The position numbers and the translations under genes were made by a program. Shown here piece by piece: positions 25,949 to 34,207 of a stretch of DNA of 64,000 bases. The notes beneath the pieces are model-generated. The model was not told the DNA's origin. It saw nothing but the letters and a program-made list of their open reading frames with translations, and did no database searches. How positions within the stretch are numbered: position 1 is the first letter of the stretch; each line of letters starts with the position of its first letter. The DNA comes from Curvibacter lanceolatus ATCC 14669 (GTDB taxonomy: Bacteria; Pseudomonadota; Gammaproteobacteria; Burkholderiales; Burkholderiaceae_C). The DNA is taken from assembly GCF_000381265.1 (NCBI RefSeq), contig NZ_KB906259.1, forward strand, positions 248,001-312,000, given 5' to 3'.

Positions 25949-26024
25949 GGGTTCTTAGCTCAGTTGGTAGAGCAGCGGACTCTTAATCCGTAGGTCGAGT
26001 GTTCGAGTCACTCAGGACCCACCA
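25949..26024 (+). tRNA. tRNA-Lys (anticodon CTT)
   Basis: A complete 76-nt cloverleaf including an encoded CCA end. The acceptor stem GGGTTCT pairs with AGGACCC, with one G-T wobble. The D arm holds AGCTCAGTTGGTAGAGC. The anticodon stem CGGA/TCCG encloses CTCTTAA, so the anticodon is CTT and it reads AAG. The T arm is GAGTGTTCGAGTCACTC. Discriminator base A. It stands alone, with its own promoter and terminator. Confidence 0.97.
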
Positions 26025-32983: not shown

Positions 32984-34207
32984 TCAGCTGCTCAGCGCAA
33001 AACCGGTGTCGAAGGTGCTCTTGGTGTCCAGGCGCTGGCGGATCAGGCCGGCGTCGAAGTAGAAGTCGGCCGTGCGCTGCTGCTCAGCCACCACGGCCGC
33101 GTCGATGGTCTGCCAGCGGGTCTGGCGGCGTTCGAACTGCAGGCGGGCCGCATCGGCGGAGATGCCGATGATGCGCGCCAGGGTGTCGCCGAACTCGGCC
33201 GGGTGCTGGCTGGCCCAGCGCTGGGCCCGGGCCGCGCGCTGGGCAAAGTCCAGCAGCACCGCACGCTTGTCGCGCAGTGCGGTGTCGGTGGCGGCCAGAA
33301 AGCTCAGGCCGCTCCACAGGCCGCGCCCGCTCACCAGCACGCGGGCATGGCCACCGGTTTCGGCCAACGCGGTGTAGGGCTCCCAGGTGGCCCAGGCGTC
33401 CACCGCCCCGGTGCTGAGCGCCAGTTTGGCCTCGGCCGGGGGCAGAAAGCGCCATTGCACGTCTTCGCTCTTCAGGCCCACCGAGGCCAGGGCTTTCAGG
33501 GTGACAAAGTGCCCGATCGAGCCGCGGTTGGTGGCCACGCTGCGGCCTCAAGAGCGTGTTCAGTGTCTCGCACCGGCCGCGTTGGAGCGCAATCGGGATG
33601 AGTGGGTGGCCCGGATGCGCCGCATGGGCTCGTGCCCATGCAAGCAGCTGGGGCGCCCAATCGCCCGATTTCGCTCCAACCCTTCGGGCAGTGGCCTTTT
33701 CGGGCGGTCTGCGGCGTTGCGGCGCACAGTCGATAGCCGGGCTATCGACAGCGCACCGCGCCTTGCATCCCATCCCGAAAAGACCGCTGCGCGACCCGTG
33801 GGAGACGCTGAACACGCTCTCAGGTCGCGCGCGTCTTTCAGCGTCGAGTTGGGTGCCACCAGCACCGCCGTGCCATAGGCATCGGAGCGGTTGACGGCAA
33901 AGGCCTTGACGCGGCTGCCCGCCGCCAGCGAGAAGATCAGCGGGGCGTCGCCGATCGGCCCCAGGTCGACCGCCTGGGCGTTCAGGGCTTCGGCCAGGGG
34001 CGCTGCGGCCGGGAACTCGGTCCACTGGATGTCGTAGCTCAAGCCCTTGAGTTCGCCTGCGGCCTCCAGCAAGGCGTGCAGCCCGCCCTTCTGGTCACCG
34101 GCCTTGAGCAGGTGCCGGCTTTGGGCGCGCACCGGCAGGGCCGGGCCCGTCAACAGGCCAGCGGCGCCCGCCAGGCCCAGCCACTGGTGAAAACGACGAC
34201 GATGCAT
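32984..34207 (-). pseudogene. SsuA-like sulfonate ABC receptor gene, interrupted by a ~270 bp element
   Basis: The N-terminal part (34207 to about 33821) encodes a signal peptide (LAGAAGLLTGPALPVRAQ) and the start of an aliphatic-sulfonate/nitrate-type receptor, up to NSTLKDARDL. The C-terminal part (about 33550-32984) resumes at GRSVATNRGSIGHFVTLKAL, exactly the next expected stretch, and runs to the natural end. Between them lies the element at 33551-33820. The two halves are in the same reading frame, but the N-terminal frame meets a TGA inside the far end of the element (33560-33562) and another at 33548-33550. A full product is therefore not made. ATG 34207 has AGGAAG upstream. The ssuB, ssuC and ssuD partners are absent here. 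Confidence 0.85.
33551..33820. mobile_element. MITE-like palindromic element inserted in the SsuA-like gene
   Basis: About 270 bp with 23-base terminal inverted repeats (33551-33573 and 33798-33820) matching at 21 of 23 positions, starting AGAGCGTGTTCAG. Inside are a long inverted repeat, 33581-33597 with 33664-33680 (16 of 17), and a second fold from CTTTTCGGG (33696-33704) to CCCGAAAAG (33774-33782). The latter encloses a perfect 9-base hairpin at 33729-33749. No transposase frame is present, so it would move only with help from another element. CTCA occurs at both junctions (33547-33550, 33819-33822). Removing one copy with the element leaves the gene one base out of frame, so a clean target duplication is not proven. 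Confidence 0.75.

Follow-up and report, generated by a model that had tools for sequence, protein, structure and literature searches.

A miniature transposable element in an ssuA-like gene of Curvibacter lanceolatus and the double-hairpin core it shares with elements bearing different ends

Introduction

In Curvibacter lanceolatus ATCC 14669, a gene for an SsuA-like substrate-binding protein is divided in two by a short, highly folded sequence. The locus lies in a 64,000-nucleotide stretch of contig NZ_KB906259.1 (positions 248,001 to 312,000), referred to here as the window, and raises the question of what this sequence is, how it entered the gene and where its interior came from. A first-pass annotation, made from the letters of the window alone, described it as resembling a miniature inverted-repeat transposable element (MITE) of a family that it did not recognise. 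MITEs are commonly regarded as remnants of a single insertion sequence (IS). The explanation we favour, at a probability of about 0.85, is that the sequence is a non-autonomous DNA transposon of the MITE kind, mobilised in trans by an IS5-family DDE transposase (IS5_3 type), with an independent core that changes partners. By mechanism the insertion is an ordinary one, and the element belongs to a widespread set whose members have in common a structured core, not their ends.

The element and its insertion into the ssuA-like gene

The ssuA-like gene is uninterrupted in five congeners, and the sequence that these lack was therefore taken to be the transposed element. Comparison with 61 sister copies placed its limits at 33552 and 33819 (Table 1), one base inside each of the limits first given (33551–33820, about 270 bp). 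The C-terminal half of the gene matched TIGR01728 (4.7e-34, 117.9 bits, under the model cut-off of 163.5), in line with the SsuA-like assignment made at first sight. The interval between GGCC and GGTC at the insertion point is 5 nt in the C. gracilis ortholog and consists of TCAA, the element and TCA in the window. The duplicated target is therefore the 3-bp TCA, and the left side is short by one base. The first-pass annotation had seen CTCA at both ends; a duplication is present, but the C of the right CTCA is the last base of the element. It had also put the frame off by one, a sum that follows from the missing base at the left junction. Relative to the orthologs the net insertion is 270 nt, so both halves of the gene are in one frame, separated by two in-frame TGA codons. 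One of these is at the junction and the other in the far terminal repeat, where it had been correctly located. Its suspicion of an indel or a duplication that was not clean was borne out at the left junction. An artefact of assembly is countered by the five orthologs without the element and by a second copy in the same genome.

No transposase frame was found within the 268 bp, as had been noted. The inverted arms (33551–33581 and 33790–33820) are 31 nt long and 87% complementary, and nested hairpin arms lie at 33581–33597/33664–33680 and 33674–33704/33774–33804. Folded as single-stranded DNA the element gave −113.5 kcal/mol (z −10.8), which none of 200 shuffled sequences equalled, and the inverted ends and nested palindromes of the earlier description were thus recovered at the same place. 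Scans for tRNA and Rfam families ruled out such an RNA as the identity of the element, and an attC-like site was rejected as the GTT/AAC order runs opposite to that of attC. The size of MITEs is given as 70–300 bp in a passage of PMC3733652. The element falls within this range, lacks a transposase, and has terminal inverted repeats of 15–30 bp, several dispersed copies, and both a target-site duplication, imperfect on the left in the window copy, and empty sites. The MITE-like reading is supported on each of these counts.

Table 1. Features of the interrupted ssuA-like gene and of the element within it (window coordinates)
Feature	Position	Strand	Basis or remark
C-terminal part of split SsuA-like substrate-binding protein gene	32984–33538	−	Open reading frame, profile match, orthologs
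Left copy of the duplicated 3-bp target, TCA, with an additional A (33551) after it	33548–33550		Ortholog comparison
MITE, 268 bp, GAGCGTGTTCAG...CTGAACACGCTC	33552–33819		Limits set by 61 sister copies; absent from five orthologs
Left terminal inverted repeat and outer stem	33552–33580	+	Inverted-arm analysis; closer to own right arm than to arms of other copies
Hairpin A	33581–33680	−	Occupies position of second, inverted module M in many relatives
Hairpin B with module M	33689–33789	+	Match to covariance model R1 at 33700–33778, 90.5 bits
Right terminal inverted repeat and outer stem	33790–33819	−	Inverted-arm analysis
Right copy of target duplication TCA	33820–33822		Ortholog comparison
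N-terminal part of the same SsuA-like gene, frame continuing into element	33823–34207	−	TGA at 33562–33560; C. gracilis ortholog (locus L287) is 336 aa

Sister copies, targets and empty sites

The second copy in the same genome (C5:128413–128681) is 96% identical to that in the window, and matches at E ≤ 1e-8 were found in 46 of 399 genomes of the family, its own included, in a survey that scored just two candidates per genome and thus undercounted copies. The outcomes named in advance as telling against a mobile element, namely no other copy anywhere or orthologs carrying the stretch, were therefore not what was seen. Of 72 loci examined, 61 allowed both ends to be placed and 11, which lacked two ends, were dropped; a few of those kept (e.g. 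L134, L137 and L150) have poor or doubtful ends. The sister copies are uniform in length (265–269 bp in 56 of 61) and typically start with GA(A/G)C(C/G)TGTT. Among the 51 copies with canonical ends, a TNA trinucleotide adjoined the left end in 36 and the right end in 41, and the same TNA stood on both sides in 25, against a background of 2.6%.

The left and right ends of one copy differ on average at 0.62 of 17 positions, compared with about 4.5 between copies; for the 51 canonical copies the values are 0.57 and 3.61. The end finder favoured matching ends, which biases the within-copy values downward. Selection for matched ends and copying from arm to arm would both explain a low difference, and the two arms of a copy are probably kept alike by one or the other.

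A copy in C. gracilis sits in a TctC-type gene (PF03401). Its empty site was found in four other genomes, where CTA is present, and the alignment is gap-free once one TTA is removed; this comparison used five loci, two being the same place. The host gene of the second C. lanceolatus copy has a YhgA-like counterpart (PF04754) in C. gracilis that lacks the element, with three gaps in the alignment, one of 2 nt at the junction. A similar split match was seen in G399. A global comparison of the window element with another element in its own genome (L375) gave 61% identity, and 57% to the reverse complement of the latter, and was not used as evidence. Phage records gave no match, and one match was found in viral contigs.

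Shorter forms also exist. End-only copies of 46–50 bp lack any module (e.g. C4:303852–303898 in the same genome), and genome G065 holds end-only, end plus A, end plus B and end plus A plus B copies. This genome (2.5 Mb, 230 contigs) contains 276 end sites (139 forward, 137 reverse), a large expansion, and several of its contigs begin or end inside an element. In one instance (L067, on contig C2), a second miniature element, TAGGGCCTGTTCACACTATTTCC - 9 nt - GGAAATAGTGTGAACAGGCCCTA, lies about 45 bp to the right of an A-only element; it is end-only and has another type of end.

A conserved core with different ends

The interior of the element is conserved as a double hairpin. In an alignment of 91 copies, 63 of the 115 predicted pairs occur as at least two Watson-Crick types, with no fewer than two sequences for each type. 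A covariance model of module M, designated R1 (30 sequences, 78 positions, 26 pairs), was scanned against genomes with 11 or 12 candidates scored in each. In the order, 126 of 399 genomes matched (E ≤ 1e-5); the class, searched at E ≤ 1e-7, gave matches in 42 of 369. On this last count a generic GC-rich hairpin can be discounted. When named genomes were scanned with a pattern for the hairpin B module, at least 118 stretches were obtained; the module strings were first gathered by patterns with no mismatch or up to three, so that conservation within them is partly selected. Among the matches listed, names from the Burkholderiales predominate, and Thiobacillus, a member of the Mariprofundaceae and a Desulfovibrionaceae assembly also occur; the assemblies may contain contamination. 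In the metagenome-assembled genome Nt197P4bin23, labelled Desulfovibrionaceae, the core motif was found at L151, L162, L176, L193 and L215, with ends resembling those of the window element at L151 and L176; horizontal transfer or mis-binning would account for its presence.

R1 gave 118 matches in 77 loci, which represent 73 distinct places as four were fetched twice. A second module in the opposite orientation was present in 40 loci (37 of the 73 places), and paired modules were always ordered −M then +M. Hairpin A of the window is not matched by R1; its place, which is that of −M, suggests that it is homologous to M. An IS481 gene beside a module in pRK1-5 was considered as a carrier and rejected, because that module has inverted arms of its own, which enclose it, and is situated outside the gene.

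The surroundings of the module were examined at 85 places, chosen by hand, one per place. Inverted arms (score ≥13) flank 78 of them with a median span of 268 bp (51 at 255–295 bp, 18 at 140–200 bp and 9 other); among 175 control sites taken from loci of this kind, none reached that score. The seven places without arms (L319, L336, L353, L355, L374, L380 and L361) were dropped before the ends were grouped. Single linkage chained 69 of the 78 into one group, and average linkage at three thresholds was used instead, giving 19, 16 or 13 groups, some of which still combine different-looking ends. Between groups at the 16-group cut, end identity is 0.283 (0.248 shuffled) and module identity 0.662 (0.151 shuffled), a comparison in which the modules, and not the ends, had been selected by likeness. 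The genome of C. lanceolatus itself provides an example at C1:425320, a 268-bp element with ends AGGGCCTGTTAACC in which R1 matches both modules (50.2 and 42.6 bits). One conserved core thus travels with interchangeable ends, and the family that was not recognised at first can be described as a set of MITEs with IS5-type ends.

Candidate mobilising transposases

An 845-bp IS of G065, with ends AGAACCTGTTCAAAGTC and flanked by TGA on each side, encodes a DUF4096/DDE transposase in two overlapping frames. NCBIfam assigns this transposase to IS5_3 (orfB 1e-41, over the cut-off; orfA under it). Among nine loci with PF13340, L276 has a pair of element-type ends, the match at L278 lies between two such ends about 345 bp apart, and L273, where the match is under the cut-off, has a pair 957 bp apart. 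A search for orfB in 34 element-bearing genomes found seven places in five genomes, and an element-type end follows the gene at all seven. Both ends of the IS were visible at two (G065 and G088), the others being at contig edges or remnants. In G088, AGAGCCTGTTTACGATCTT is present at both ends of 850 bp, followed by one more copy of the right end. In Aromatoleum aromaticum, an annotated IS5-family element aligned along its entire length (78.7%) and is flanked by TAA on each side. Since element-type ends border IS5_3 elements of 845–850 bp in related genomes, mobilisation in trans is likely, judging from the common end type and target. The autonomous transposon that the first-pass annotation had proposed to look for was thus found in related genomes as to its type of end; neither the exact end nor a resident IS was recovered.

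A 116-bp element (L276:1768–1883, contig C216 of G065) with ends GAACCTGTTTACGATCT / GAACCTGTTGACGATTT adjoins the IS5_3 element and encloses a partial module, GGGCGGTCTGTGGCGTTGC.

Other ends lead to other transposases. In pADP-1, an IS5-family element of about 1.2 kb has a left end identical to the 21-nt end of the element at L347 and a right end that agrees with it at 17 of 21 positions; the transposase of that IS is of the IS5_4 type (DUF772 and DDE). ISs with GGGC(C/G)TGTTAAC ends occur in G065 and G262, and searches of plasmids for two other end types found nothing. As IS5_3 and IS5_4 elements both carry them, the ends that enclose the core elsewhere belong to ISs of at least two transposase subfamilies.

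On this basis, an IS5_3-type DDE transposase would bind the terminal repeats and insert the element at TNA, duplicating 3 bp, and a protein of this type would have moved the window copy. The insertion struck the ssuA-like gene and inactivated it through the two in-frame TGA codons. The interior, a conserved double hairpin, is not derived from the ISs compared. Because MITEs with unrelated ends, some of them belonging to another IS5-family subfamily, carry the same core, the core appears to be a selfish unit in its own right, which has gone from one partner to another by exchanging its ends.

Several observations weigh against this explanation. The target duplication of the window copy is imperfect, and identical TNA on both sides is limited to 25 of the 51 canonical copies. 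Just three of the nine PF13340 loci (L276, L278 and L273) show element-type ends; L272, L274 and L275 bear GGGC(C/G)TGTTAAC ends, and no pair of this kind was obtained at L270, L271 and L277. PF13340 had no match in the C. lanceolatus genome, and the orfB search detected no such transposase there or in the congeners G194 and G389; a partner may have been lost or missed. No IS with the exact GAGCGTGTTCAG end was found, and the ends of the window element had no match to five ISs at word size 7. The resemblance to autonomous IS5 elements is one of general end type and does not extend to the exact end letters of the window copy. An excess of G.T over A.C pairs in both hairpins, described below, also belongs here.

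Alternative explanations for the core

The pairing data bear on whether the core acts as DNA or as RNA. A structured RNA, either a regulatory RNA or a ribozyme, could serve the MITE or its host after transcription, which we consider unlikely. Strong conservation of pairing with changes on both sides would agree with it, as would the three G.T pairs of M that, in one orientation, hardly vary, and the 91-copy alignment, where G.T outnumbers A.C in hairpin A (117 vs 38) and in B (71 vs 33). G.U pairs are usually tolerated in RNA helices that are under selection. The outer stems of 61 non-redundant modules, which were aligned to R1 and hence lean toward the structure of that model, draw on all four Watson-Crick types (pair 1–88: AT 17, GC 16, TA 13, CG 11), while the three mispairs (G.T, G.T and T.G) are kept in 156 of 183 cells. 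Outside these three positions, however, G.T (19) does not exceed A.C (39), unlike in RNA helices that tolerate G.U, and a structure at the DNA level is therefore favoured. The outer stem of the 91 copies gave 49 G.T and 59 A.C, and the 22 copies with less than 80% identity gave 30 vs 7 in hairpin A, 17 vs 10 in B and 23 vs 21 in the outer stem. The modules stand in opposite orientations within one element, and no Rfam family reached its gathering score on the element; the best match below threshold was a microRNA model (29.3 bits vs 90).

An imperfect hairpin with a nearly invariant mispaired site amid freely varying stems also recalls a single-strand recognition site, like those of REP (repetitive extragenic palindrome)/RAYT or IS200 systems, that an HUH or tyrosine recombinase would move, the ends being secondary. 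The inverted pairs of modules would fit, as REPINs are inverted pairs. This is rather improbable, given TNA targets and ends in common with ISs that have DDE transposases, inverted arms at 78 of 85 module places, and end-only copies of 46–50 bp without any module. It is more improbable still, to the point that we give it almost no weight, that these are ordinary internal-deletion MITEs of several ISs with interiors alike merely through hairpin similarity. Module identity between end groups (0.66) is far from the shuffled value (0.15), and the interior showed no similarity beyond chance to any of the five ISs compared.

Conservation of the mispaired site amid changing stems suggests that the folded strand is recognised by a protein. 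The core may function as folded DNA, either through a hairpin or cruciform that joins the ends or through a host protein bound at this nearly invariant site. More tentatively, and as an idea to which we give less than even odds, it could be a class-wide selfish DNA unit, a gene-less double hairpin that repeatedly gains new terminal repeats and so parasitises many transposases, with arms kept alike by hairpin (snap-back) copying and the mispaired site recognised by a conserved host factor.

Relation to known repeats

Bacterial MITEs of IS5-family transposases are alike in being short and lacking a transposase, and in having the end type of a full IS, a small target duplication and many copies; they differ in that the interior here is not from the ISs compared and is common to unrelated ends. 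The R0 and R2 repeats of P. fluorescens, as portrayed in part of PMC2718517, have inverted repeats identical to those of resident ISs and fold into hairpins. Their core is called variable there, while in the present elements the core is conserved and the ends vary. The TIMEs, miniature elements derived from Tn3, are similar in their size (262 bp), inverted repeats (38 bp), lack of a transposase and mosaic derivatives, going by a portion of PMC4133298, and differ in their Tn3-family ends and 5–6 bp duplications. In the composites mentioned there it is the cores between the TIME ends that differ, which is the reverse of the present case. REPs are units of 20–40 bp with a GTAG or CGTC tag according to PMC3733652, whereas the modules here are about 80–100 nt long, with a model that spans 78 positions, and lie inside ends of the DDE-transposase type.

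Among the titles and openings of abstracts listed in searches of open-access PMC, none describes the core, and an earlier account may exist in subscription papers or ISfinder. When six core strings were searched as text in the same literature, one was found, in an unrelated zebrafish paper. If the core does keep its structure throughout a bacterial class as one set of ends gives way to another, the unit on which selection acts would be the passenger and not the end, and the way in which non-autonomous transposons acquire new ends would become open to direct testing. R1 provides a searchable model for this widespread repeat; no Rfam family covers the window element.

Elsewhere in the window, a single tRNA was found, tRNA-Lys(CTT) at 25949–26024.
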